A stretch of 37,145 nucleotides of DNA, from the NCBI GenBank assembly GCA_002862135.1, contig PKCI01000078.1, forward strand, positions 1-37,145. The letters run 5' to 3'. Made by a program: the position numbers and the translations under genes. The notes under the pieces are model-generated. The model worked only from the letters and a program-made list of their open reading frames with translations, had not been told where the DNA came from and ran no database searches. The DNA comes from Verrucomicrobiota bacterium (lineage in GTDB: Bacteria; Verrucomicrobiota; Verrucomicrobiia; Verrucomicrobiales; DEV007). Shown here one piece after another: positions 2,810 to 20,219 of the stretch (positions are counted from its first letter, which is position 1; the number at the start of each line of letters is the position of its first letter).

Positions 2810-4570
2810 ATGGTGGGAACCCGATACAACACGAATCGCAGACTAGCCGGGGTTCTCGTCCCGATCTTTTCCATTCGTGGCGAAAATGATCTTGGCATCG
2901 GCGACGTCGCCAGCCTAAAGGAATTCGTCAATTTTGCTTCTGAAGTTGGTTTTGGCTTTGTCCAGTTGCTCCCCATTAACGAAACCGGTCCGGATAACAG
3001 CCCGTATAACGCCATCAGCTCTGTAGCGATTGAGCCGATGACACTCGATTGCACCCCAAAGGGTCTCAAGGACCTTCCGGAGGCGACGGCTTCCGAAATT
3101 CTGAGCAAATATGACATCGAAACCCTCAACGCCGGCAATGTTCAATATGAATCGGTGCGCAAGCTCAAGCACGAGCTTCTCCAAAAAGCCTATGAGGGCT
3201 TTCTTGAGAATGTCTACGGCCGGGTGGATAGCCGAGCTGACGATTTTGAAGCTTTCTATGAGAAGGAGGCCGCATGGCTTAATGACTACTGCGTTTTCCG
3301 ACTGTTGATGGAGCGGGAGGGAGGCAGCCAGGTTTGGCAGAACTGGCCTGAAGATTTGCGCTCGAAGGAGAGGGCGATTGAGATTTTGGCCGAAGAAGAG
3401 ATGGTGTCAGGGTCTAATGAATTAGATAAAAAACTACGCTATTACGCTTATGTTCAGTGGGTTGCTAAGAGTCAATGGAAAGAAACTGCTGATTACGCCG
3501 CCTCCAAAGACATTTCCCTAATGGGCGACATTCCGATCGGGGTGAGCCTCTACAGTGTCGATGTCTGGGCCAATATGGAGATCTTTGATCTCGATTGGTA
3601 TGGCGGCGCACCGCCCGAGAAACTCTTCAAGGATGACGAATTTGTTCAGAAGTGGGGGCAGAACTGGGGGATCCCGCTCTATCGCTGGGATGTGCTCAAG
3701 GAGCGTCACTACGACTGGTGGCGCCAGCGGATTGGCAAAGCGACCGAAATTTTTGGAATGTTTCGGGTCGATCATGCCCTCGGCTTTTATCGAATTTACG
3801 CGTTCCCCTGGAATCCGGTTCGAAATGAAGAGTTTCTGCCGTTGACCAAGGTCGAGGCGGAGGAGCTTTGTGACGGGAATCTTCCCGGCTTCAAGCCGCG
3901 ACCTGATGATTCTGACGAAGATAAAGCAGCCAATCGGGCTGAAGGGGAGGTTTATCTCTCCATGATCAAAAAGTCCGCCGGCACTGCCGAAATGATCGCT
4001 GAAGATCTCGGTATGGTGCCGGATTATGTGCGCCCCTCGCTCGAAAACCTGGGTATTGCGGGAATGAAAGTCCCGCAGTGGGAGTTTACCGACGGGCATG
4101 TGACGTCAGGGCTCCAGTATCCGAGTTGCTCCTTTGCCACCTACGCAACGCATGACCACTCCCCATTGCCGGCCCAGTGGAAGGCAATGCATAAACAACT
4201 GTGCGAGGCAGAAGTTGAGAGCCCTGAATGGTGGGAGGCCAAAAAATTTCTCGAAACGCTCTGCCATTTCGCCGGAGTTGAACTCGAAGATGGGTATCGC
4301 ATCCCCGAATTCAGCTCCCATATTTGGCATAAACTGATGCGTGAGCTTTGTTTCTCCAACTCCGACCGTGTCGCTTTCATGATTTCCGACCTGCTCGAGG
4401 ACGACAATCGCATCAATGTCCCCGGTGTGATGGACGGCACGAACTGGTCATACCGTGTTCCCGCTTCATCCAAGGATTTAGGCGTTGGACTCGACTTTCG
4501 GGACCTCCGGGAAGATATAAAAAACGTGTTGAATGAGTCCAGCCGCTCGCGAAGGGTGGACATTTTCTAA
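2810..4570 (+). CDS. malQ: 4-alpha-glucanotransferase (amylomaltase, GH77)
   Basis: The enzyme disproportionates maltodextrins by moving alpha-1,4-glucan segments between chains, in cytoplasmic glycogen and maltose metabolism. The 586-residue protein opens with the family signature ([19 protein letters not shown], then [15 protein letters not shown]). The GH77 catalytic residues can be read: nucleophile Asp321 in FRVDHALGF, acid/base Glu398 in AEDLG, and the third carboxylate Asp449 in THDHS. Length is a little above the usual 500-550 residues because of an inserted stretch near residues 100-170. ATG at 2810 places the family N-terminus correctly. It is 87 bp after the methyltransferase and 89 bp before mdh, so co-transcription is possible but not shown. 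No glycogen synthase or phosphorylase lies beside it here. Confidence 0.95.
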
Positions 4571-5752: not shown

Positions 5753-5903
5753 CAGCCACCCCTTTCTGCCTGTGAAAATCATCCACGTTAACGGGGCCCA
5801 TTTTGTTAAATTTTTAAATTGTTAAGCGTCCTTCGCCGTGAGACGGGTGTTACTAAAAACCACCCCTGCACACGGCAATTTTACACCGACCGCAATAAAA
5901 AAC

Positions 5904-8900
5904 ATGTCCGATAGCCAAACTGCGCAGCGAGAGCCTCTGGCCATCATTGGAATCGGTTGCCGCCTCCCGGGTGGTGTCACCGGTCCCGAGTCATTTTGGA
6001 ATCTAATGATGGAGGGCCGCTCCGGGATTGTTCCTGTGCCCGCCGACCGCTGGAATCGTGATCGGTGGTATCACGAAAATGTGGATATCCCGAGCAAGAT
6101 GATCACCAAGTGGGGTGGGTTCATTCACGATCACGATCAATTCGATGCTCAATTTTTCGGGATCTCGCCCCGGGAAGCATTGCGCATGGACCCTCAACAA
6201 CGCTGGTTGCTGGAAACCTCCTGGGAATCTCTTGAGGATGCAGGTATCTCACCTGAAAGTCTGAAGGGTAGCGAGACTGCGGTTTACGTGGGAATCGCTT
6301 CGAACGATTACGCGAATGTTGCCCAGAGTGACCCCAAGAACGTTGACGTTCACACCAACTCTGGTTCGACACTCTCGATTGCTTCGAATCGGATTGCGTA
6401 TCTTTTCGACCTTAAAGGGCCTGCTGTATCTGTCGATACGGCTTGTTCTTCAGCGCTCGTGGCTATTAATCTCGCTTGTGAGAGCGTCTGGTCAGGCCAA
6501 TCGACCATGGCTCTAGCTGGTGGTGTCAACGCTCTTTTGACGCCCGATGCCTCCATCGGGTTCTCAAAGGCAACAATGCTGTCTCCTTCCGGCCAATGCT
6601 TTGCTTTTGACGATCGCGCCAATGGCTATGTCCGTGGCGAGGGTGCCGGCATGTTTGTGATCAAGCCGCTTTCTCAGGCGAGGAAGGATGGTGATCGCAT
6701 TTACTGCACTATCCGAGCTGCAGTCATCAATCAGGACGGCAACACGTCTTCGATGACCGTCCCAGGTATCGACACCCAGGCCGAGATGCTGCGCATCGCC
6801 TACGGCCAAGCCGGTCTTGAACCCAAGCGAGTTCGCTACATGGAGGCTCATGGAACCGGCACGCCGGTGGGTGACCCCATCGAGACGACAGCGCTTGGGC
6901 AAATTCTCTCGCAGGGGCGCGACGAAGGCGATTACTGCCTGCTCGGTTCTGTAAAGACCAATGTTGGCCACCTTGAATCAGGATCCGGTGTTGCCGGACT
7001 CGCCAAGGCGGCTCTTGTCCTGCACCACGATACGGTGCCGGCAAACCTCAATTTCGAGAACCCGAATCCCGACATTCCTTTCGAGGAGTTCAAGTTCAAA
7101 GTCGCGACTGAAAACCAGCCACTGCCGCACCTTGACGGTCATCTTCCGGTGGTTGGCGTGAACAGCTTTGGTTTTGGAGGAACTAACTCTCATATCGTGC
7201 TCGAAGCCGTCCCTGCCGAAGACAAGGTCGAGGCTGGTGCTGCAATCGAACTGAAAGGTGGCACGAAGGCTGAGCGCCCAATGTTGCTACCAGTCTCCGG
7301 ACGCGGCGATGACGCGCTGCGCGATACTGTCGTGCGCTGGCGACGTTTCCTCCGCTCAACTGATACGGACATTGCAAACATATCTGCTGCGGCCGGCTCC
7401 AAGCGTGAACACCACGACAACCGTCTCGCGTTCATCGGCGACGACAAGGACGCACTCATCCATGAGATGACTGAGTGGCTGGCAACCGGTGAGGGCGAGA
7501 GCGCGATCCCAGGTAAGCCGGCAGGGGAAGCTCACGATCCGGTTTTCGTGTTTACTGGGCAAGGGGCCCAGTGGTGGGCCATGGGCCAGGATTTGCTCAA
7601 GCGTGAGCCCGTCTTCCGCGACGTGCTCGAAGAGATCGATTCACATCTCAGTCCTCTGGCTGGCTGGTCTCTCATCGAGGAGATGACCCGCACCGAAGAA
7701 GATTCTCAAATCAACCGCACCAACATCGCACAGCCGGCGATCTTCGGCCTTCAAGTGGCGCTCGCTGAGCTTTGGAAGTCTTGGGGTATCGAACCAGCCA
7801 AGGTCGTTGGTCACTCCGTGGGTGAAGTCGCTGCTGCCTACGTGGCCGGCGCCTACACGATGGAAGATGCGGTGAAGGTCATTTATCACCGGTCCCGCCT
7901 CCAGGATCAGACGGGAGGCAACGGCCGCATGGTGGCTGTTGGTATTTCTCAGGCCGAAGCCAAGAAGGCGATCGCCGGTAAGGAAGATCAGGTTCAGGTC
8001 GCCGTGGTGAACAGCCCTGGACTCTTGACGCTGGCAGGGGACACGGAGCCGCTTGAAGAGGTGGTTGCTGAGCTGGAAGAAGCCGGCAAGTTCGTGCGTT
8101 GGTTGCGTATCGATTACGCGTTCCACACGCATCAGATGGAGCCGATCAAGGATGAGCTTTTGAAGGTCCTCAAGGACATCGAGCCTCAGCCGACCAAGGT
8201 GCCATACATTTCAACCGTGACCGGCGGTGTCCTCGACGGCACCAAGTTGGACGGAGACTACTGGTGGCAGAACGTTCGCGAAGCGGTGCTTTTCGCACCT
8301 GCGATTTCCGGCCTGATTCGTTCCGGTGAAGATACCTTTATCGAACTCGGACCGCACCCGGCTCTCCAGAATCCGATCATGGAGTGTCTCTCAGATCAGA
8401 ACCGCAAAGGCTTCTATTTCTCCAGCCTGCGCCGTAAGACCGACGAGTCCGTCGAAATGATTTCCAATCTCGCCCGGATGCAGAATCACGGGTTCGAGAT
8501 CGACTGGGAGGCCGTTGCCCAGGCATCCGCTGCCGGCGTGCGCCTGCCCACCTACGCTTGGCAGCACGAGACTTTCTGGCTCGAGTCCAAGCAGAATGAA
8601 TACCTTCGTTGCGCTCCGCTTGAGCACCCGCTGCTTGGCCTTGAGCAGGAAGCTCCGCGTCCGACTTGGCGCTTTGATCTCGACCCGCGCTACTTCACGT
8701 GGCTCGACGATCACCGCTTTTGGGATAGTGTGATTTTCCCGGCTTCCGGTTATGGTGAAATAGGCATTGCGATTGCTCGCAAGCTTTTCCCTGACGAGAA
8801 TTACGTCGTCGAGGACCTCGAGATGAAGAAAGCGCTCTTCGTTTCCGAGGACAAAGTTCCCACTGTTGAGGTGGTTTTCGATCCTGACACACGCATTTTC

Positions 8901-11900
8901 CGCATCTTCAGTGCCACGGGTGATAAGAATGAATGGGAGCTCAACTCACAAGGTGTGCTTCGCAAGCAGCCCGAGCCGTGCCGTGGCCTTTTCGACATCG
9001 AAGAGATAAAAAAAGATCTGCCGGAGCACTTTACCCACCGGGAATACTACGACGATTATGAAGAGGCTGGTTACCAGTTCCGTCCGCTCTTCCAGCACCT
9101 CCGGAATGTCTGGCGGAAGGATGGTGAGTCGCTTGCTGAGATCGTCGCTCCTGAGGGGCTTTTTGATACGATTCCGGACCATCACTTCCACCCGGCAGTG
9201 CTCGACGCCTGCTTCCACCCGGTGAAGGGCGGCCAGGTGATTCCTGAGGGGGCTAACGCACTGGACTATTTCTACCTGCCGGCAGCGATTCGCAGTATTC
9301 GCCTCCACGTTGAGCGCCCGCCTCTCCGACTCTGGGGCCATGCCAAGGTGAACTCCGACAACGATCGCGAATATATCATTGCCGACATTGATGTGTATGA
9401 TGACGCCGGTAACCTCGTTGCCGAAATCTATGGATTTCGTGCTGACCGCGTTGAGCAGAGCAACCGTGACGAGCTTGAAAAGTGTGTTTACCAGGCTGAG
9501 TGGGAACTTGCTCGCCTGCCCGGAACGCGCGAAGGTGGCAGCGCCAACTTGCCGGCACCGGCTGAGCTGGTTGAAGCCGCCAACTCCAATCTTCCGGAGC
9601 TTTACGCACAGCGCGGACTCGCTGACCACTACGAGAAGTTTCTTCCGGCCCTCGACGAGGTGTCACGTCAGTTTATCATCAATGCCTATTACGAACTCGG
9701 ATGGGATCCGAAGGTGGGGGACGAGATCACGATTCCTGGATTGACGAGAGAGCTGTCTATTGCTGACCAGCACGTCAAGCTGGTCTTTGGACAACTTCTG
9801 TCATTATGTGAGGGTGGATTCCTCAAACAGAAAGATGGTGAAACGTGGGAGGTGCTCGAAGTGCCCAGTAGTGAGGAAGCCCTGCCATGGGTTGATAAGT
9901 TGATTGAAACACTGCCTCACTTCGCCTCAGAGGCCGAATTGCAGCGCCTTACCGGCCCCAATCTGGCCGGTGTGCTCAGCGGTGAAACCGATCCGCTGGA
10001 AGTTCTTTTCCCGGGAGGATCTTCCCGCATCATGGAGCGTTTCTATCGCGAGGGAGCTGACTTCCCGGTAATAAACATTCAGATCAAAGATGCGCTCGCC
10101 AAAGCGGTCGAAAATCTGCCCGAGCGTCGCACAATCCGGGTTCTCGAGGTTGGTGCTGGAACGGGTTCGCTCACCCGTGAAATTCTGCAGGTGTTCCCGC
10201 CCGAGCGCACGCAATACGTCTTTACTGATAACGGACCGCTCTTTCTCCAGTCTGCCGAAGATCGCTTCTCTGAAGAATTTCCATTTGTCGAATACAAAAT
10301 GTTCGACTGTGAGAAGTCTCCGGAAGCCCAGGGGATTGATCCGCATCACTTTGACATCATCTTGGCGTCGAACGTGATTCACGCGACCGAGGACCTCAAG
10401 ACCACGCTCAACAATCTGCGCGGTGCCCTGACGGAAGACGGTCTGCTCATGTTCCTTGAGGTGACCTGGCGCCGCGCCGCCCTCGATAACGTGTTTGGCC
10501 TTCTGCCCGGTTGGTGGCGTTTCACTGACACTGACCTTCGTAAGGATTCCGCTCTGCTCTCCCGCGAAAAGTGGGAGGAGCTCCTGACCGATCTTCAATT
10601 CCGTGATGTTGCCAGCTTCATTAGTTCCGAGAATCCGGATCAAAACCAGCAGGCCTGCTTGATTGGTCGCGCCCCTGATCCCGTCGCACTTCCCGTTGAG
10701 GGAGTCGAGGCGGCTGAAGATGCCACTGCCGACAGTGAAGAGGCTGAGGCTCCCGTCAAGGCGGTCGTTCTCGTCACTGAGGACCAATCCGGTCTTGGTA
10801 AGCAGCTTGCTTCCGCGCTCGAGACCGAAGCCATCGAGACGGTCCTCGCTGGCTCGACTCTGGAAAATCTCAGTGACAAGGTGGAGAATCTGACCGGCGA
10901 AGGGCGGGTCATCAAGCACATCATTCAAACGCTTTGCCTGGATCATCCAAAATCGGATGGACTCAGCCTCGAGCAGCTCAATGCCGCTCAGGATTCCGGG
11001 GTGCGTTTTGCCCACGGCCTTTTCCAGTTCATCACGAACCGTGAATGGGACGAGCGGCCGCAAATTACTTTCCTGACTCGCGGCACGATGCCGGTGAAGC
11101 GTGGAGAGGCTCTTCCGGGTCTCGCCTCGGCGCCGTTGACCGGTCTTCTCCGCGTGGCCAATAATGAGCACGCTGAATTCACCTGGGGCCAGATCGATCT
11201 GGATCCCAAGGCGAACGAGTTCGAGTTGGAGGACCTCACTGCTGAGTTCCTGCACTCCAATCACGAGCACGAACTTGCTTTCCGCGGAAACGGTCGCTAC
11301 GCCCGCCGTGTCCACCGCGTGAAACCGGAGGCTTTGCCGGGCCGGACTCGCAACGCTGTCCAGGAGGATGGGTCGGTTTTGCCGTATCGCCTCCAGATCG
11401 ACAAGCCTGGTATCCTGACAAACCTTTCTCTCAACGAGACCTCGCGCCGCGAGCCTGAAGCCGACGAGATCGAGATTCAGATCAAGGCAGGCGGCATCAA
11501 CTTCCGCGACGTGATGAAGGCACTCGGTATCTACCCGGGCAATCCAGTCGACCTGAAGTGGTTCGGTGATGACTTCTCTGGAACTGTGGTCAGTGTTGGT
11601 TCTAAGGTGACCGACCTGAAGCCGGGCGACAATGTCGTGGGCATGGCGCCATATTGCTTCCGCAGCTACGTCACCGTAAACCGCAGCATGGTCTTCCGTA
11701 AGCCGGATAGCATGAGCCACGTTGAAGCGGCGACGCTTCCGACAGTGTTCCTGACATCGCACTACGCGATCAACGAGCTAGCCCGAATGGAGAAGGGTGA
11801 GAGCATTCTTATTCATGCCGGAACCGGTGGTGTGGGTCAGGCCGCGATCCAGATTGCGAAGCACCTCGGTCTGACGGTATTCTCTACCGCAGGCACCCCT

Positions 11901-14900
11901 GAGAAGCGTCAGCTTCTTAAAGACATGGGTGTTGACCACGTACTCGATTCCCGGACGCTCGAGTTTGCGGATGAAATTATGCGCATCACAGATGGCGAAG
12001 GGGTGGACGCTGTCCTCAACTCGCTCGCCGGTGACTTCATTCCGAAGAATTTTAGCGTGCTGAAGACCTTTGGGCGCTACATGGAGATCGGTAAGGTCGA
12101 TGTCTACGGCAACTCCAAGATTGGTCTTGAGCCGTTGCGCAACAACATCAGCTTCTTCGTGATCGATCTGGCTCAGCACCTGCAGAGCAAGCCGGCCTAC
12201 GTGGCAAGCATGTTCTCTGATCTGGAGAAGATGTTCTACGAAGAGATTTACGAACCGCTGCCGAACGAAGTGTTTCCTGTCACCGAGGTGGTTGAAGCCT
12301 TCCGTTTCATGGCTGCCGGTAAGCATATCGGTAAAAACGTGCTCGACTTTGATGTGCCCGAGATCGAGATCGGTTACCCAACTGAGGAAGGGCATCGTTT
12401 CCGTCCTGACGGCACTTACCTGATCACAGGTGGTGCCGGTGGTTTCGGCCTCGAGCTTGCTCAGTGGATGGCTGATAACGGAGCCCGCCACTTTGTGCTC
12501 ATGAGCCGTTCCGGTCCGAAGGATGATGCGATTGAGAAAATCGAGGAAATGCGCGCCGGGGGAGTCGAAATCATGGATGCCCGTGGTGATGTGACGAGCC
12601 GCGCCGACATCGATAAGGCCATCGCTGAAGTCCAGAAGGGCAAGGCCCCGCTTATCGGTGTGATTCACGGAGCGATGGTGCTCGATGATGAATTCATCAA
12701 CGAACTCGACACCGAGCGCTTCGATCGCGTGCTCCTTCCTAAGATGCTTGGTGCCTGGAACCTCCACGAAGCGACCTTGGATCTTCCGCTCGAACTTTTT
12801 GTCTGTTTCTCCTCGTTCTCCGCCTTTATCGGAGCGGTGAAGCAGTCCAACTACAACGCCGGTAACGTGTTTCTTGATCAGATTGCGCACTACCGCCGCT
12901 CCCTTGGTCTCCCGGCTCTGACATTCAACTGGGGTGCTCTCGAGGGTGCCGGTTTCGTGGCCCGAAACGAGAAGACCAAGGAATACCTCGAAATGGTGGG
13001 ACTTGGTTCTACCGACATGGACGAGACTCTGTATCTCTTTAGCCTCGGTATTCCGACCGACGCGTATCAGCTCGGTTGTGCCCGATGTGACTGGCAAGCA
13101 CTGGCTCGCTTCAGCCCTTCAGTGGGTGGTTCTGATATGTTCCTGCCTGTGGTGCCGCGCACCAGCAGTGGTGGTGGCGACTCCATGGCTGCCCGGATTC
13201 TCGAGGCCGCTCCGGAGAAGCGTTCCGGGATGGTTGAGGATTTGATCGCCGCCCAGGTGGCAGCTGTGCTCGGCACGGATGCGATGCGGATCGACAAGGA
13301 TACGCCGCTGACTAACCTTGGTCTCGATTCGCTTATGGCGATAGAGCTCGTGAACCGTATCGAGGAGAAGCTCGGTATGTCCATGCCAATGGGCTCGGTG
13401 CTCAACGGCCCGAGCATTATTGACCTGTCAGTGCCGGTGCTTGAGAAGCTTCTCGAATCCGGAGGTGGAATTGCTGGTGACAGCGGTGCTGGCGCAGCTG
13501 GTGACCTGGTCGAGTTCGAAGCTACCGGTGAAATGCCGGAAGTCTTCCCGCTCTCCGAAGGTCAGAAGGCCCTGTGGTTCCTACACCGACTTGCGCCGGA
13601 GTCATCCGCCTACAACTTGGTCTTCTCAGGTAAGTTCCGTCCGCTCCTTGACATCGAGGCGATGAAGACGGCTTTCGCTTTGCTCTTCGAGCGTCACCCG
13701 CTCATCGACGTCACCTTCACCATGAAGGACGGCGAGCCCATGCAGGTGGTCCAGAAAGGACGCACCATCGATTTTCGCGAGCATGACTGCACCGCGATGG
13801 ACGTCGAGCAGCTCAAGGCGACTATCAGCGAACATGCAGATCGTCCGTTCAACCTGGAGCGTGGCCCGGTCATCCGTCTAGAGCTTTTCCGCACAGCGGA
13901 CGAAGCTCACGTGGCTCTGCTCAGCATGCATCACATGATCTCCGACGCCTGGTCGGTGGCTGTGATCATCCAGGATCTCATTGAGTACTACTTCTCGACG
14001 AAGGCAGGCCGGACCCCGCAGGTTGAGTCTCTCGACGCAACCTATGCTGACTTTGTGAATTGGGAGAAAGCTCACCTCGAGAGCGACGCCGGTGAGCGCA
14101 TGTTCGACTTCTGGAAAGAGCACCTTGCCGGTGCTCCTTCCGCGATCGATCTCCCAACCGACCGACCGCGTCCTGCCGTTCAGACTTTTAACGGTGCCAC
14201 CTATGGATTTCAGCTTGATGAGGAGTTGACTGAATCGGTGGATCAACTTGCGAAAGACAACAGCGTGACTCTCTTCACGACCCTCCTCTCCGGTTATGAT
14301 GTGCTGATGCACCGATACTGTGACCAGGATGATATCGTCGTGGGTGTACCGCTTGCCGGACGAAATCAGTCCGAACTTCAGAGCACTGTGGGTTACTACA
14401 TAAACCCGGTTCCGATGCGCAGCACCGTGGAGGAAAATCCGTCCATCTCCGAATACCTTCAGGCTAACAGCGAGCGCGTGAATGGAGCGCTGGAAAATCA
14501 GCAATACCCGCTCGCCCGCATGGTCGACCGCCTCAACGTGGTGCGTGACCCGGGCCGTTCGCCTCTCTTTCAGGTGAGTTTCACCATGGAGAAGGTGCCG
14601 GGTATTGACGACGAAGGTATTGCCGTGTTCCTGATCGGACAGGGTGGACACACCTTCAACGTGGGCGACCTCACCATGGAGACGATTGATCTGACGACCC
14701 GCCAGGCGCAGTTCGAAATTACCCTGACGCTGGAAGAAGCCGGTGGTCAGCTCTTCGGGTGCTGGCAGTATAATCGTGATCTCTTTGACGAGGAGACGAT
14801 CAAGGAACTCTGTGGTCTCTATGAGCAGGTGCTTCGCGAGATGACGGAAAACCCGGATCAGAAAGTTTCCGAACTGAATCTCCTGCCATCCGGTGACGAG

Positions 14901-17900
14901 AAAAAACTGCTTCTCGATTTCAACGAAACCAAGGCTGATTACGAAGTCGACGCACTGCTGCACGAGTTGATCGAGACTGTCTCTGCAGTGAAGGACGAGG
15001 ATACGGCGGTGATCTTCGGTGATACTCACGTGACCTATGGCGAACTCAATCGTCTCGCCAACGGAGTCGCCCGCGATCTTTCAGCTGCCAGAGTTTCAGC
15101 AGGGGATAATGTTGGTGTTCTTGCCGACCGTTCTCCGAAGATGATCGCTGCATTGCTCGGCGTTTTGAAGACCGGCGCGACTTACATCCCGCTCGATCCT
15201 GAGTTCCCGGCGCAACGTCTTGAGATGATGCTGGAAGATGCAGCGCCGAAGGCTTTGATCGCCTCGGCTCGTCTCGGCAGTTCTCTGCCAACCGGGGATT
15301 GGAAGGTGATCGATCTCGACTCGGTCGAAGCGACTTCGAAAGCGCCGGAGACTCCCAGTATTGACTCTGAGTCTCTTGCCTACATCATTTACACCTCCGG
15401 TTCGACCGGAACGCCTAAGGGTGTGGAGATCCCACACCGTGCTGCGGTGAACTTCCTCCGCTCGATGAAGGACAAGCCAGGCCTCACGGCTGAAGATCGT
15501 CTCCTCGCGGTGACGACACTCTCCTTCGACATTTCTCTCCTCGAGATGTTCCTGCCTCTCCTGGCCGGCGCCAAGGTGGTGATCGCGAGCGGTGATGATG
15601 TGAAGGACGGTCGTCGCCTCGCCAACCTTATCAACGAAGAGGACATCTCGGTGATGCAGGCCACTCCGGCGACCTGGCAGATGCTGCTCGACAGCGGCTG
15701 GGAAGGTAACAGTGGGCTTCGCATTTTCTGCGGTGGTGAAGCACTCAACCGCACTCTGGCGAATACCTTGGTCAACTCAGCTGATGAGCTGTGGAACCTC
15801 TACGGTCCGACCGAGACGACCGTTTGGTCTACGGTCGAGAAAATCGAAGAAGGTGAAGCGGCCATCTCGATTGGTCAGCCGATTGCCAACACTCAAATTT
15901 ACATCCTCGATGACAATCACAAGCCTGTGCCGCAAGGTTTCACTGGTGAACTCTGGATCGGTGGTGACGGCCTCGCCAGCGGTTACCGCAACCGTGAGGA
16001 ATTGACTGCCGAAGCCTTCCGAGAAATTGAGCTGGCCGGTCTCGGGACTCAGCGCATCTATCGCACTGGAGACCTGGCTCGCTGGAATCGTGATGGCAAG
16101 CTTGAGTGTCTTGGGCGTGTCGACTTTCAGGTGAAGCTGCGTGGAGTGCGCATCGAGCTCGGTGATATCGAGACGCAGCTTGAAGCCATTAGTGGGATTA
16201 AGCACGCTGTCGTAACGAAGCGTGGAGATCTCCCGACCGGAGAAGGTCTTGTCGCCTACTACATACCGGAAGCCGAGGGTCTTGAGGCCACCGCTATTCG
16301 GAGTGAGCTTGTCAGGAATCTGCCGGCCAGCTATATCCCTGCTTATTTCTCGGCGCTGGATGAATTCCCGCTGACGCCGAACAAGAAGATCGACCGCAAG
16401 CAATTGCCGATGCCGAAGACTGGCGCCGCCAGCGAGGGCGAACGTGTTCGCCCTCGTAATTCGATTGAGGAGAAGCTCTGGGAAGTGTTCAGCCGTAACT
16501 TCGATTCTGAAGATATTGGTGTGACTGATAACTTCTTCGAAATGGGGGGTGACTCTCTGCTCGCTCTCCGGATCTTGGTTGATGTCACAGAAGCCTTCAA
16601 GCAGGATGTCGGTGTCGACACCTTCCTGACGCACCCGACGATTGAGCAATTGGCCCACTACCTCGGGAGTGAACCTGTCGCGGCGACAGAAGTGGAAAAG
16701 GAGACTGGACTCGATATTGACTTCTCCGACTTGGCTCACATCAGCGTTGAAGAAGCTTCCGACGAGTTGCGTGATCTGGATGCCGTAGCATTAACCTACA
16801 TCCCTGAGGCGCTGGCCAGTATGTCAGGACTGGCACGCGACGAAATTTCCGAGCGCCTTTTTGGAGGTAGGCCGCGTCTCAGTAATCGATACGAGCTCTC
16901 AGAAGGCAACATTGGTGTTGTGATGCTGCCTTACTTCGAATCTGATTTTCACAAGAATCCGGAGTCTGTGAAGGCAGCAACTCTCGCAGCCCTCGAGATG
17001 GCTGGAGAGGCTGGGGCGAAAAATGTGTCGCTGACAGGAGTGATTCCGTCTACGACTGATCACGGGCGTGACATCGAGAAATGGATGGAAGGCAAAGATG
17101 GGCTTCCGTCAATCACGACGGGTGATGCGACGCGTTCCGCGACGATCGTGAAGTCGGTGGAAGGTGTTCTGGCTGAGGCTTGCCGCGAACTCTCCGACGA
17201 AACGGTTTCGGTGGTAGGGCTCGGATCAATCGGGTTCGGCACGCTTCGCCTCATGCTTGACGTGATGGCCCATCCTAAGCACCTCATCCTCTGTGATCCG
17301 TATCAGACGGATGATCAAATGAGTCGCATACGTGATCGTGTTCGCGATGCAGGATACCAGGGACAAGTGGATATCGTGAAGAATGGTGGGGCTCTCCCAC
17401 CTGAGGTTTACGAAGCTTCCATGGTGGTTGCGTCGACCAACCTCCCGGGTGTTCTAGATATCAGCATGCTCAAGCCTGGAGCACTGATAGTTGACTACAG
17501 CTTCCCACCGGTCTTCCGCCTAGATGAGGCCATCAAACGTTTTACCTCGGAGCGCGACATCCTTTTCACTACCGGTGGAGAGCTTATGATGCCTGATGTG
17601 GTCTCTGAAACTATTTACCTGCCCGAAGAACTTGAGGACCTTGATGATGCTGTTCAGGCAAGCTTCATGAAGTTCCTTGCGAGCCGCGACAAGCGAGAGA
17701 TCACCGGCTGTGTTCTTGTCAGTCTGTTGACTGGCGCGGAAGGCGTTGAGCCGACTCTTGGGCCGTTGGAGAATGAAGATGCCCTGGCACACTATGAGCA
17801 CCTTGATAAGCTCGGAGTGAAGCCAGCAAGGCTCCAGATGGGCGGATTCTTCCTGCCGGAGGAGGGAATTACCTTTTTCCGTGACCGCCGAAGTGGAACA

Positions 17901-17915
17901 TCGACAACGTCGTGA
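5904..17915 (+). CDS. Hybrid highly reducing PKS-NRPS with an acyl-ACP-reductase-like terminal domain
   Basis: One 4003-residue polypeptide carries a complete assembly line (numbering from ATG 5904). KS is at about 10-430 (Cys181 in DTACSS, His316, His356). AT is at 545-850 (Ser638 in GHSVGE; YAFH at 738-741). DH is at 905-1190 (His937, Asp1101; the usual HxxxG reads HRFWD). A C-methyltransferase lies at about 1260-1570 (VLEVGAGTG from 1413). A KR structural half follows at 1600-1815, then ER at 1830-2150 (AGTGGVG near 1975). KR is at 2165-2400 (TGGAGGFG; Ser2304, Tyr2317; LDD motif of B-type KRs). ACP is at 2435-2515 (Ser2476), C at 2545-2985 (HHMISD, His2677) and A at 3015-3500. PCP is at 3505-3580 (Ser3551). 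The terminal NAD(P)-binding domain is at about 3668-4003 (GLGSIG 3772-3777; Cys3936). The PKS half should act iteratively, since there is a single module. A GTG at 5838 would add 22 residues, but ATG 5904 places the KS start normally. No docking regions are visible. Composition does not look unlike its neighbours by eye. The product is unknown; an N-acyl amino aldehyde is inference. Confidence 0.95.
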   Translation: MSDSQTAQREPLAIIGIGCRLPGGVTGPESFWNLMMEGRSGIVPVPADRWNRDRWYHENVDIPSKMITKWGGFIHDHDQFDAQFFGISPREALRMDPQQRWLLETSWESLEDAGISPESLKGSETAVYVGIASNDYANVAQSDPKNVDVHTNSGSTLSIASNRIAYLFDLKGPAVSVDTACSSALVAINLACESVWSGQSTMALAGGVNALLTPDASIGFSKATMLSPSGQCFAFDDRANGYVRGEGAGMFVIKPLSQARKDGDRIYCTIRAAVINQDGNTSSMTVPGIDTQAEMLRIAYGQAGLEPKRVRYMEAHGTGTPVGDPIETTALGQILSQGRDEGDYCLLGSVKTNVGHLESGSGVAGLAKAALVLHHDTVPANLNFENPNPDIPFEEFKFKVATENQPLPHLDGHLPVVGVNSFGFGGTNSHIVLEAVPAEDKVEAGAAIELKGGTKAERPMLLPVSGRGDDALRDTVVRWRRFLRSTDTDIANISAAAGSKREHHDNRLAFIGDDKDALIHEMTEWLATGEGESAIPGKPAGEAHDPVFVFTGQGAQWWAMGQDLLKREPVFRDVLEEIDSHLSPLAGWSLIEEMTRTEEDSQINRTNIAQPAIFGLQVALAELWKSWGIEPAKVVGHSVGEVAAAYVAGAYTMEDAVKVIYHRSRLQDQTGGNGRMVAVGISQAEAKKAIAGKEDQVQVAVVNSPGLLTLAGDTEPLEEVVAELEEAGKFVRWLRIDYAFHTHQMEPIKDELLKVLKDIEPQPTKVPYISTVTGGVLDGTKLDGDYWWQNVREAVLFAPAISGLIRSGEDTFIELGPHPALQNPIMECLSDQNRKGFYFSSLRRKTDESVEMISNLARMQNHGFEIDWEAVAQASAAGVRLPTYAWQHETFWLESKQNEYLRCAPLEHPLLGLEQEAPRPTWRFDLDPRYFTWLDDHRFWDSVIFPASGYGEIGIAIARKLFPDENYVVEDLEMKKALFVSEDKVPTVEVVFDPDTRIFRIFSATGDKNEWELNSQGVLRKQPEPCRGLFDIEEIKKDLPEHFTHREYYDDYEEAGYQFRPLFQHLRNVWRKDGESLAEIVAPEGLFDTIPDHHFHPAVLDACFHPVKGGQVIPEGANALDYFYLPAAIRSIRLHVERPPLRLWGHAKVNSDNDREYIIADIDVYDDAGNLVAEIYGFRADRVEQSNRDELEKCVYQAEWELARLPGTREGGSANLPAPAELVEAANSNLPELYAQRGLADHYEKFLPALDEVSRQFIINAYYELGWDPKVGDEITIPGLTRELSIADQHVKLVFGQLLSLCEGGFLKQKDGETWEVLEVPSSEEALPWVDKLIETLPHFASEAELQRLTGPNLAGVLSGETDPLEVLFPGGSSRIMERFYREGADFPVINIQIKDALAKAVENLPERRTIRVLEVGAGTGSLTREILQVFPPERTQYVFTDNGPLFLQSAEDRFSEEFPFVEYKMFDCEKSPEAQGIDPHHFDIILASNVIHATEDLKTTLNNLRGALTEDGLLMFLEVTWRRAALDNVFGLLPGWWRFTDTDLRKDSALLSREKWEELLTDLQFRDVASFISSENPDQNQQACLIGRAPDPVALPVEGVEAAEDATADSEEAEAPVKAVVLVTEDQSGLGKQLASALETEAIETVLAGSTLENLSDKVENLTGEGRVIKHIIQTLCLDHPKSDGLSLEQLNAAQDSGVRFAHGLFQFITNREWDERPQITFLTRGTMPVKRGEALPGLASAPLTGLLRVANNEHAEFTWGQIDLDPKANEFELEDLTAEFLHSNHEHELAFRGNGRYARRVHRVKPEALPGRTRNAVQEDGSVLPYRLQIDKPGILTNLSLNETSRREPEADEIEIQIKAGGINFRDVMKALGIYPGNPVDLKWFGDDFSGTVVSVGSKVTDLKPGDNVVGMAPYCFRSYVTVNRSMVFRKPDSMSHVEAATLPTVFLTSHYAINELARMEKGESILIHAGTGGVGQAAIQIAKHLGLTVFSTAGTPEKRQLLKDMGVDHVLDSRTLEFADEIMRITDGEGVDAVLNSLAGDFIPKNFSVLKTFGRYMEIGKVDVYGNSKIGLEPLRNNISFFVIDLAQHLQSKPAYVASMFSDLEKMFYEEIYEPLPNEVFPVTEVVEAFRFMAAGKHIGKNVLDFDVPEIEIGYPTEEGHRFRPDGTYLITGGAGGFGLELAQWMADNGARHFVLMSRSGPKDDAIEKIEEMRAGGVEIMDARGDVTSRADIDKAIAEVQKGKAPLIGVIHGAMVLDDEFINELDTERFDRVLLPKMLGAWNLHEATLDLPLELFVCFSSFSAFIGAVKQSNYNAGNVFLDQIAHYRRSLGLPALTFNWGALEGAGFVARNEKTKEYLEMVGLGSTDMDETLYLFSLGIPTDAYQLGCARCDWQALARFSPSVGGSDMFLPVVPRTSSGGGDSMAARILEAAPEKRSGMVEDLIAAQVAAVLGTDAMRIDKDTPLTNLGLDSLMAIELVNRIEEKLGMSMPMGSVLNGPSIIDLSVPVLEKLLESGGGIAGDSGAGAAGDLVEFEATGEMPEVFPLSEGQKALWFLHRLAPESSAYNLVFSGKFRPLLDIEAMKTAFALLFERHPLIDVTFTMKDGEPMQVVQKGRTIDFREHDCTAMDVEQLKATISEHADRPFNLERGPVIRLELFRTADEAHVALLSMHHMISDAWSVAVIIQDLIEYYFSTKAGRTPQVESLDATYADFVNWEKAHLESDAGERMFDFWKEHLAGAPSAIDLPTDRPRPAVQTFNGATYGFQLDEELTESVDQLAKDNSVTLFTTLLSGYDVLMHRYCDQDDIVVGVPLAGRNQSELQSTVGYYINPVPMRSTVEENPSISEYLQANSERVNGALENQQYPLARMVDRLNVVRDPGRSPLFQVSFTMEKVPGIDDEGIAVFLIGQGGHTFNVGDLTMETIDLTTRQAQFEITLTLEEAGGQLFGCWQYNRDLFDEETIKELCGLYEQVLREMTENPDQKVSELNLLPSGDEKKLLLDFNETKADYEVDALLHELIETVSAVKDEDTAVIFGDTHVTYGELNRLANGVARDLSAARVSAGDNVGVLADRSPKMIAALLGVLKTGATYIPLDPEFPAQRLEMMLEDAAPKALIASARLGSSLPTGDWKVIDLDSVEATSKAPETPSIDSESLAYIIYTSGSTGTPKGVEIPHRAAVNFLRSMKDKPGLTAEDRLLAVTTLSFDISLLEMFLPLLAGAKVVIASGDDVKDGRRLANLINEEDISVMQATPATWQMLLDSGWEGNSGLRIFCGGEALNRTLANTLVNSADELWNLYGPTETTVWSTVEKIEEGEAAISIGQPIANTQIYILDDNHKPVPQGFTGELWIGGDGLASGYRNREELTAEAFREIELAGLGTQRIYRTGDLARWNRDGKLECLGRVDFQVKLRGVRIELGDIETQLEAISGIKHAVVTKRGDLPTGEGLVAYYIPEAEGLEATAIRSELVRNLPASYIPAYFSALDEFPLTPNKKIDRKQLPMPKTGAASEGERVRPRNSIEEKLWEVFSRNFDSEDIGVTDNFFEMGGDSLLALRILVDVTEAFKQDVGVDTFLTHPTIEQLAHYLGSEPVAATEVEKETGLDIDFSDLAHISVEEASDELRDLDAVALTYIPEALASMSGLARDEISERLFGGRPRLSNRYELSEGNIGVVMLPYFESDFHKNPESVKAATLAALEMAGEAGAKNVSLTGVIPSTTDHGRDIEKWMEGKDGLPSITTGDATRSATIVKSVEGVLAEACRELSDETVSVVGLGSIGFGTLRLMLDVMAHPKHLILCDPYQTDDQMSRIRDRVRDAGYQGQVDIVKNGGALPPEVYEASMVVASTNLPGVLDISMLKPGALIVDYSFPPVFRLDEAIKRFTSERDILFTTGGELMMPDVVSETIYLPEELEDLDDAVQASFMKFLASRDKREITGCVLVSLLTGAEGVEPTLGPLENEDALAHYEHLDKLGVKPARLQMGGFFLPEEGITFFRDRRSGTSTTS

Positions 17916-18008: not shown

Positions 18009-20219
18009 ATGAGACTATTCGCCGCGGCTATCGCGACGGGGTTGGTGCTTTTGTTTACCGCCAACTCGGTCGCTTACCCCTTGACGCTTGAGCAGAGAAA
18101 GCGGTTCAAGCGCTATCTGCCGGGCACTTTTCCTAAGCTCGAAGCGCAGGAGCCCGTTCACTTCGTTGTTCTGGGAGATAGTGTCACTGGTGGCTACACC
18201 CCGTTGGAAGGCGCCTGGGAGCAGAACAATCCTGTTTTCAGCTACGTTGGGGGATTCATTGATCTAATTGCCCGCGAGTTTTTCTACACGGGCGGGGCAA
18301 GGCTTTTGAATCCTCCCGCAGGAGGCAGCCAGACTTCCGAGGACTTCCTCGGGAGGAGTATCACTTTTGAAAATCTGGCCGTTCTGACCGGAACGTCGAT
18401 GACTGGCCTTCGGCGGACTTCGACCGATGCCTTCCTGCATCAGCCTGACTTGGTGATTATTCAATACGGGATCTACGATGCCTTGAATCGACTCTCGTTG
18501 GATACCTACAAGCGTGCTATCCAAGAGACTATCGATGCCGGGCGGAAAAAGAATGCCGATATCATCGTGATCGGCCCTGGACTGGCAAACTACGGAGGGG
18601 GATCAATGGAGTTTGGCCTCACTCGTCCGTATTCCATGGCGGCAAAAGAAGTCGCTTTCGCGAATGGAGTGTTGTTCATGGATTCCGGGCAGCATCTTTC
18701 AAGATTTGGCGGTGGCGTGTTACCTGATACTCATCCAGATGCCGCGATGGAGATCGTGGGAGATCGCATGAAGGATATTTTCCGTTTTGGACCGGAGTGG
18801 AAAAAAGTCGAGCGGATTCACACTGGTCCGCGTGCTAATGAATATCTGGCCCACTGTTTGTTCCAGGAGTTGAAGAATGGTCCTCGTCTGACCAAATTCT
18901 CATACGCTGGCACCGCGGCTTTCAACAGGGAGGGCGGGGTGGACGTGAAGTTAGTGATTCGCAATCTTACCGAGGATTCCCAGGAAGGATGCATCGGTGC
19001 TCTTAACGTCGGTCCCGGGCTTCACCCGATGCAGGCGACTCAGCGTTTCCGGATTCCCGCGGATGCGACGACCCAGCTTGGGTTCACCTACGCGCGTCCG
19101 TTTGCTGGAAAGGCGAGGGACGGTTCAGACATTCTTTTCCCGTTGCAGCCTTCAGATGAGTTCTGCCGCTTTTCTTTTGTGCTGGAAGATACGATCGGTT
19201 CGGAACTGATTGACCTGCCGGTCAGGGTGGGGCCGGTTACTGCTGTATGGAAGTCTCGACAGTTTCTCAACGTGACCGATCGGATTCGAATCGAATGGGA
19301 TCTTGTAAACGGGACTGACAAATCTTCATCAGGGACTTTTCAAGTAGGGCTGGGAGACAAGGTAGGCCAACCGACAACTTTCTCCGTTTCTCCACTTGGC
19401 GTGAAGAGTGTATTTTCGCTCTTTGAATTCTCGTCCGATTTCGGTAATACTCCGTTCCAGCGTGATGTCTGGATTCAAACAGACGTGAATGACCGTATCG
19501 TTCGGTTCAATCGTGAGCTGGAAGCCACCCGCGACCTTGTCCTCGGTGAGAACCGATCTATGAAGCGCTGGTCGCAATATGCTAATGCACCTCCTGCCGG
19601 GGAAAACCGGGCGCAGCGCCGCCGTGAAGGTGATGTGTCCTACCGGTTCGATGCTGATGAGGACGCCCTCTACCTGACGGTCGTCGTTAATGGAGTCGCC
19701 ATCCCGGATCTTGGTGATGCGGCCGCCGTTCGCACCAAGGTCTTTCTCGATGCCAGACCCGTTAACGAAGTGCTTTCATTCGGAGCGGTTGAACCGGTTG
19801 AGATCTACACAAAGGGGACTGAAGGCCCCGGGAGCTCTCCTGATCTTCCGATTGGATGCTTTGGCAGCGGTTACAATCTTCGTCTGAGCCCCAAAGGGGT
19901 CACATCAGCCCTGGTCTTTGGAGAAGGTGGTGAGAAATCAGTCGTAATGCGGATTCCCCGCAGTTACCTCCATCGTCATGAGTGGGAGCTGGAATCTATT
20001 GACAGCATGTTGGGATTTCGAGTCGAATTGACCATTGCCGAGCCCGCAGCTGACGGGACAGTCACATTCCCTGAAACCAACACTTTCGTCTCACACAGTC
20101 CGACCTGGGCGTTTGAGAATCAGGCAGTCTATGGATTCAATTCTAAAGATGCGAGGTCGCTCAGCGTTCTGAGATTGTCCCGCCAGCCGGTGCAAAGCTG
20201 GTCAGTGAGAATTTACTGA
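18009..20219 (+). CDS. Exported SGNH-hydrolase-like protein with C-terminal beta-rich region
   Basis: This 736-residue protein has an N-terminal signal peptide (hydrophobic residues about 4-22, AYP after it). An SGNH/GDSL-type hydrolase domain follows, to about residue 260. Block I is LGDSVTGG with nucleophile Ser58, block II is NLAVLTGTS, and block V is DTHPD with Asp240 and His242. Block III, usually GxND, reads GIYD (154-157), so the oxyanion-hole Asn is absent. The remaining 470 residues look like beta-sandwich modules. The last 200 (RFDADEDALYLTVVV, FLDAR) resemble CBM9/DOMON-like carbohydrate-binding domains, but this is a weak call. Likely role: extracytoplasmic esterase or deacetylase on a glycan or ester. 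It begins 93 bp after the megasynthase on the same strand, with no strong terminator between, so a functional link is possible but unproven. Confidence 0.8.
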   Translation: MRLFAAAIATGLVLLFTANSVAYPLTLEQRKRFKRYLPGTFPKLEAQEPVHFVVLGDSVTGGYTPLEGAWEQNNPVFSYVGGFIDLIAREFFYTGGARLLNPPAGGSQTSEDFLGRSITFENLAVLTGTSMTGLRRTSTDAFLHQPDLVIIQYGIYDALNRLSLDTYKRAIQETIDAGRKKNADIIVIGPGLANYGGGSMEFGLTRPYSMAAKEVAFANGVLFMDSGQHLSRFGGGVLPDTHPDAAMEIVGDRMKDIFRFGPEWKKVERIHTGPRANEYLAHCLFQELKNGPRLTKFSYAGTAAFNREGGVDVKLVIRNLTEDSQEGCIGALNVGPGLHPMQATQRFRIPADATTQLGFTYARPFAGKARDGSDILFPLQPSDEFCRFSFVLEDTIGSELIDLPVRVGPVTAVWKSRQFLNVTDRIRIEWDLVNGTDKSSSGTFQVGLGDKVGQPTTFSVSPLGVKSVFSLFEFSSDFGNTPFQRDVWIQTDVNDRIVRFNRELEATRDLVLGENRSMKRWSQYANAPPAGENRAQRRREGDVSYRFDADEDALYLTVVVNGVAIPDLGDAAAVRTKVFLDARPVNEVLSFGAVEPVEIYTKGTEGPGSSPDLPIGCFGSGYNLRLSPKGVTSALVFGEGGEKSVVMRIPRSYLHRHEWELESIDSMLGFRVELTIAEPAADGTVTFPETNTFVSHSPTWAFENQAVYGFNSKDARSLSVLRLSRQPVQSWSVRIY

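Follow-up and report, generated by a model that had tools for sequence, protein, structure and literature searches.

How a finished chain leaves a PKS-NRPS megasynthase that has no thioesterase is the question raised by the window, by which we mean the entire stretch of 37,145 nucleotides analyzed (contig PKCI01000078.1 of a Verrucomicrobiota bacterium). An intact open reading frame on the forward strand (5838-17915) encodes the megasynthase, and translation from the GTG codon at 5838 gives 4025 residues. We favor the ATG at 5904 as the start, based on the N-termini of homologs, which lie near the second methionine, and on the local sequence. Residue numbers are given in GTG numbering (Table 1), from which 22 is subtracted to obtain the ATG numbering used in a first-pass annotation of this DNA. 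The domain order of the window protein (Pfam) is KS-AT-DH-MT-ER-KR-ACP-C-A-PCP, after which stands a domain with the acyl-ACP reductase (AAR) fold. A search of the window's own genome for the 4'-phosphopantetheinyl transferase family gave two matches that exceed the curated cut-off.

The closest PDB relative of the PKS half is mycocerosic acid synthase, an iterative enzyme, which fits a PKS half that is probably iterative and fully reducing. The DH motif HxxxGxxxxP (window 8712-8741) reads HRFWDSVIFP, with Asp in place of Gly and the adjoining Trp kept across the clade; DH activity in the window protein is uncertain. The A-domain code DILQ[F/L]GLVWK was found in 32 of 33 aligned proteins, the exception being a separate NRPS of locus L041 (see below). 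Our reading of the window A domain as one that would load glycine is based on its closeness to the known glycine code DILQLGLIWK.

Table 1. Positions in the window of the megasynthase, its domains and the motifs of its terminal domain.
Feature	Position	Strand	Remarks
PKS-NRPS megasynthase	5904-17915	+	4003 aa counted from ATG 5904
KS	5931-7187	+	PF00109/PF02801; active-site Cys203, His338, His378 conserved
AT	7542-8396	+	PF00698; GHSVGE, YAFH motif
DH	8625-9464	+	PF21089/PF14765; His959, Asp1123
C-methyltransferase	10086-10610	+	PF08242/PF13489
ER	11460-12344	+	PF08240/PF00107/PF13602
KR	12411-12944	+	PF08659
ACP	13218-13430	+	PF00550 (2 stretches)/PF23297; Ser2498
C domain	13542-14912	+	PF00668; HHMISDA
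A domain	14985-16388	+	PF00501/PF13193; code DILQFGLVWK, read as glycine
PCP	16503-16664	+	PF00550; Ser3573
AAR-fold / TAD-like terminal release domain (putative role)	16728-17912	+	Sequence, profile and fold matches; last ~395 residues
TTGDATR motif	17115-17135	+	TTGH in carmabin, Pantoea, L041, S. fungicidicus
GLGSIG dinucleotide loop	17217-17234	+	Asp3820 (domain D210) ends next strand
DYSFPP	17493-17510	+	DDSxPH in other TAD-like lineages
TTGG	17568-17579	+	SEGG in carmabin
Cys3958 (Cys3936 in ATG numbering)	17709-17711	+	Invariant; equals carmabin TAD Cys2238
His3985 (domain H375)	17790-17792	+	Invariant in TAD-like domains, except Strep_NBC (Tyr)

Fold and relatives of the terminal domain

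No Pfam family was matched above threshold in the 415 residues after the PCP (3611-4025), where the only weak match was to 2-Hacid_dh_C (E 0.17), and Pfam detected no thioesterase of the alpha/beta-hydrolase type either after the last PCP or elsewhere in the megasynthase. An NRPS thioester reductase of the SDR type, a class marked by TGxxGxxG and YxxxK, was ruled out, as residues 3611-4025 have no NAD_binding_4/SDR match. The first-pass annotation, which had taken the domain to be neither a TE nor an SDR-type reductase, was therefore correct in this respect, and the fold search described below agrees. Its start at 16750 was close enough to the beginning of the domain proper, and the sequence blocks it had quoted were all in place (in ATG numbering, TTGDAT 3738-3743, GLGSIG 3772-3777, GALIVDYSFPP, GG 3891-3892, and Cys3936).

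Thirty-four homologs could be aligned over the whole domain, with 49 invariant columns that include the Cys, the nucleotide loop and His375, a likeness well beyond chance. A PDB search with the single sequence matched 9E4S and 9E4X (E 1.6e-68, residues 34-407), and a profile of the 34 homologs matched the carmabin TAD chains at E 2.2e-116 over 400 positions, the same profile matching PigE (4PPM) at 2e-4 and AAR (6JZU, 6JZQ, 6JZZ) at 4e-3. An AlphaFold2 model of the domain (21 homologs; mean pLDDT 79, pTM 0.81) had as its best structural matches five PDB entries that bear the title "TAD from Carmabin Biosynthetic Pathway" (9E4S, 9E4U, 9E4X, 9E50, and 9E56, released in 2025; Z 48, TM 0.81-0.86, 34-35% identity), among which there are NAD and NADH complexes. 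AAR ranked second (Z 27, 16-19% identity; Foldseek E 5e-14), and ordinary dehydrogenases third (Z about 13 or less). In the PDB the carmabin protein is named "Amino acid adenylation domain protein" (residues about 1905-2308), and TAD presumably stands for terminal amidation domain. Within the AAR fold, the terminal domain of the window thus falls in the TAD-like branch: it has similarity over the whole domain, the fold, the C-terminal place after a PCP and an equivalent of Cys2238. The structure prediction and profile search suggested in the first-pass annotation consequently confirmed the AAR fold that it had recognized by eye, and they identified the carmabin TAD, rather than cyanobacterial AAR, as the closest family.

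Membership of the cyanobacterial AAR family itself (TIGR04058) was rejected despite the shared fold, as the cut-off of 449.7 bits was not reached; just three of the 34 members matched this model with an E-value no higher than 0.01 (lowest E 3.5e-4). The domain shares the fold, the TTG block and the Rossmann loop with cyanobacterial AAR (PDB 6JZQ/6JZU/6JZY/6JZZ), which is, however, a free-standing enzyme. A TIGR04058 search for free-standing AAR in the window's own genome found none. Also rejected was a thioester reductase of the PigE/PtTamH type (30.6 bits, the cut-off being 850; PigE model E 1e-7; no transaminase domain). PigE and PtTamH resemble the window protein in having an AAR-like domain in a fusion and a carrier-bound acyl substrate (PMC9594044), but the fusion partner is a transaminase rather than an NRPS and the sequence similarity is weak.

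The view of the first-pass annotation that such a fusion was undescribed did not hold. PigE and PtTamH were already known as fusions of an AAR-like thioester reductase with another enzyme (PMC9594044), the carmabin TAD is itself a C-terminal AAR-fold domain of an NRPS, and vatiamide and hectoramide synthetases have counterparts after a PCP (PMC10949194). In VatR and HcaD, which we liken to the window protein on the basis of their published description, the domain stands after the last PCP, where a TE would otherwise be, and is annotated as terminal amidation; the C-terminal domain of HcaD is 83.5% identical to its VatR counterpart, and this type of domain is linked to the primary amides of the dragonamides, carmabin A and vatiamides E and F (PMC10949194). 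Relative to carmabin, the window protein has in common the NRPS part, Cys2238 and a Rossmann loop with an Asp for NAD(H), and it differs in being a single PKS-NRPS chain with a glycine code, a sulfotransferase partner and an origin in the phylum Verrucomicrobiota.

TAD-like domains also occur at the C-terminus of a 3925-residue NRPS/PKS encoded on a Streptomyces fungicidicus plasmid (WP_121549379; 28% identical) and as a free-standing protein in an NRPS/PKS cluster of Pantoea stewartii (WP_347449507; 35% identical), the latter indicating that the C-terminal place after a PCP is not universal for such domains. The Pantoea cluster, on plasmid pCN101 (L064:10558-21110), comprises KS-AT-ACP, luciferase-like monooxygenase and NRPS genes. 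A distant AAR/TAD-like protein (Strep_NBC) is encoded near acyl carrier protein and ketosynthase genes on a plasmid of Streptomyces sp. NBC_00470 (L066:14980-19184). A carmabin-type TAD was found in a different verrucomicrobial family (L041 [G082:C32], also L069); that of L041 forms the C-terminus of a frame of about 4760 residues, behind which lies another NRPS gene.

The cysteine and the active-site signature

The first-pass annotation had singled out Cys3936 (Cys3958) as lying where AAR has its acyl-accepting residue (C294; PMC9594044), and this candidate for catalysis aligns exactly with Cys2238 of the carmabin TAD. In a HMMER alignment, Cys3958 faces a Cys at residue 334 of the 9E4X construct, and position 334 corresponds to residue 2238 because the last residue of 9E4X_A, 2302, is construct position 398 in the same alignment. 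The title of PDB entry 9E56 records a disulfide between Cys2238 and dephospho-CoA. That Cys3958 is invariant and lies opposite a residue bound to dephospho-CoA supports a role for it as acceptor of the chain that the phosphopantetheine arm delivers. Asp3820 would fit NAD(H) as the cofactor.

We compared the active-site signature with that of the carmabin TAD (the sole representative of the cyanobacterial TADs), the free-standing Pantoea protein, the S. fungicidicus domain, L041 and the distant Strep_NBC. The first four lineages all have TTGH and DDSxPHCF (DDSGPHCF in carmabin), and [ST]EGG is common to carmabin, Pantoea and L041; Strep_NBC, a distant free-standing homolog, has TTGH and DDSQPYCW. 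The window domain instead has TTGDATR, DYSFPPVF and TTGG. It is one of 24 verrucomicrobial PKS-NRPS domains that form a single clade (support 100/98), all of which have TTG[D/N/E]xTR and DY[S/A]FP with T[T/S/N]GG, so that His153, Asp277, His281, and Cys282 (domain numbering) of the four other lineages are replaced in every one. The AAR signature, TTGN and DGGYP, is also unlike that of the window domain. L041 retains the carmabin type although it comes from another verrucomicrobial family, and the change in signature thus marks an enzyme clade and not the phylum. We provisionally define an "amidating subgroup" by TTGH together with DDSxPHCF, which is our own observation and has no published definition; as none of the 24 domains has this combination, we classify them as a variant clade and not as amidating TADs. 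What is new here is this verrucomicrobial TAD-like clade with a replaced active-site signature.

AAR-fold release domains are few, and in the literature we found their chemistry, amide versus aldehyde, is unsettled. A large, well-sampled clade with a natural active-site swap relative to the solved carmabin domain makes the residues that decide the outcome testable.

Distribution and the sulfotransferase partner

The terminal domain was found in 43 of 95 relatives, mostly of the same genus but also in many other genera of the family, and wherever contigs allow it ends a frame of about 4000 residues. Nearly all members of this uncultured Verrucomicrobiales genus keep the megasynthase. A phylum-wide sample of 388 genomes contained no carrier besides the window's own genome.

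Sulfotransferase homologs (E 1e-40 or better) were present in 41 of the 43 relatives with the megasynthase and in three of the 52 without it, a statistic that ignores shared ancestry; within the other genera of the family the counts were 13/13 with and 1/12 without. Support that does not depend on these ancestry-inflated counts comes from the operon-like linkage of the two genes, as a Sulfotransfer_3 gene lies about 4 to 22 bp downstream of the megasynthase in three genera (L042, L045, and L047) and a divergent sulfotransferase gene adjoins it in L046. The window's own genome has two sulfotransferases, both unlinked to the megasynthase. The better homolog (G000:C11, L067:3769-6278) is directly preceded, with no gap, by a gene of glycosyltransferase family 21, and this pair is kept in four close relatives (G004, G011, G021, and G032). 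Sulfation of the product is likely, and we regard its glycosylation as a lead. The locus thereby points to a product that is probably sulfated and lipopeptide-like, and that could be made by nearly all of the genus and many members of the family.

The second sulfotransferase homolog (G000:C9, L068:384-3604) adjoins genes for a bacteriorhodopsin-like protein and a Blh-type beta-carotene 15,15'-dioxygenase. In L042 and L045 an SDR gene lies upstream of the megasynthase, with an enolase-family (mandelate racemase) neighbor. Within the same genus, an SGNH/GDSL hydrolase-like protein (window 18009-20219) is a conserved downstream neighbor of the megasynthase, but we do not count it as part of the system because it occurs in family members both with and without the megasynthase.

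Proposed release of the chain and its possible outcomes

We consider it very likely that the terminal domain is of the TAD-like class and releases the chain by way of its cysteine, a confidence that does not extend to the outcome. The enzyme would be a single-protein PKS joined to one NRPS module predicted to load glycine, with the terminal domain acting in chain release. The N-acyl-glycyl chain would pass from the phosphopantetheine arm of the PCP to Cys3958, beside bound NAD(H), and would leave it as something other than a free acid. Thioester transfer to the Cys, use of NAD(H), the glycine and the outcome are all steps that we infer. Given the altered active site and the association with a sulfotransferase, the product is probably new.

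As to the outcome, we lean slightly toward reduction over formation of a primary amide, holding reduction as a tentative first choice with somewhat less than even chances. The domain would act as an aldehyde-forming reductase in the manner of AAR and PtTamH, with hydride from NADH reducing the Cys-bound thioester to an N-acyl-glycinal, and further reduction to the alcohol would provide a hydroxyl open to sulfation by the partner sulfotransferase and perhaps, in some genomes, to glycosylation. Consistent with this are the AAR fold and the precedent of PtTamH, whose AAR-like domain forms an aldehyde from a carrier-bound acyl thioester in an NADH-dependent reaction (PMC9594044). The partner sulfotransferase requires a nucleophile such as OH, and the family 21 glycosyltransferase gene directly before the better sulfotransferase homolog also fits. 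The aldehyde release pictured in the first-pass annotation nevertheless cannot be assumed from the fold, which is insufficient by itself, as the nearest relatives are tied to primary amides rather than aldehydes; the window signature departs from that of AAR, and sulfation or glycosylation might take place at another position of the chain or be unconnected.

Amidation ranks close behind. Ammonia would attack the N-acyl-glycyl thioester, bound to the Cys or to the PCP, to give an N-acyl-glycinamide, and the sulfotransferase would act on a hydroxyl of the polyketide. The carmabin TAD is the closest relative with a known product context, and the hectoramide paper describes the counterpart behind its final PCP as a terminal amidation enzyme, although the same paper states that the mechanism and enzymology of this type of domain have not been studied (PMC10949194). 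The replacement of four active-site residues throughout the verrucomicrobial clade argues against amidation, as the carmabin chemistry may not carry over.

A more far-reaching form of the reductive reading, which we consider unlikely but worth stating, is that the clade switched from amidation to reduction and makes an N-acyl-aminoethanol-type lipid with a glycine-derived, ceramide-like head, sulfated and in some cases glycosylated, that would be a constitutive, lineage-wide product and not an optional secondary metabolite.

Cyclizing, non-redox release of a tetramic acid by a Dieckmann reaction, as in fungal PKS-NRPS with inactive reductase domains, seems improbable to us. The overall domain order equals that of the fungal hybrids, and the fungal PKS-NRPS psoA was among the PKS relatives in the PDB search. 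The release domains of fungal PKS-NRPS hybrids are, however, SDR-type, and the window domain is not; its invariant Cys and conserved nucleotide loop favor NAD(H) thioester chemistry, and with a full reducing set in the PKS half a beta-keto group need not remain. That the domain is an inactive or regulatory dehydrogenase-like tail with no role in release is the least credible reading: no characterized member is known from this phylum, but the megasynthase has neither a TE nor an alternative release domain, and the Cys, the nucleotide loop and His375 are among the columns that stay invariant across the homologs.
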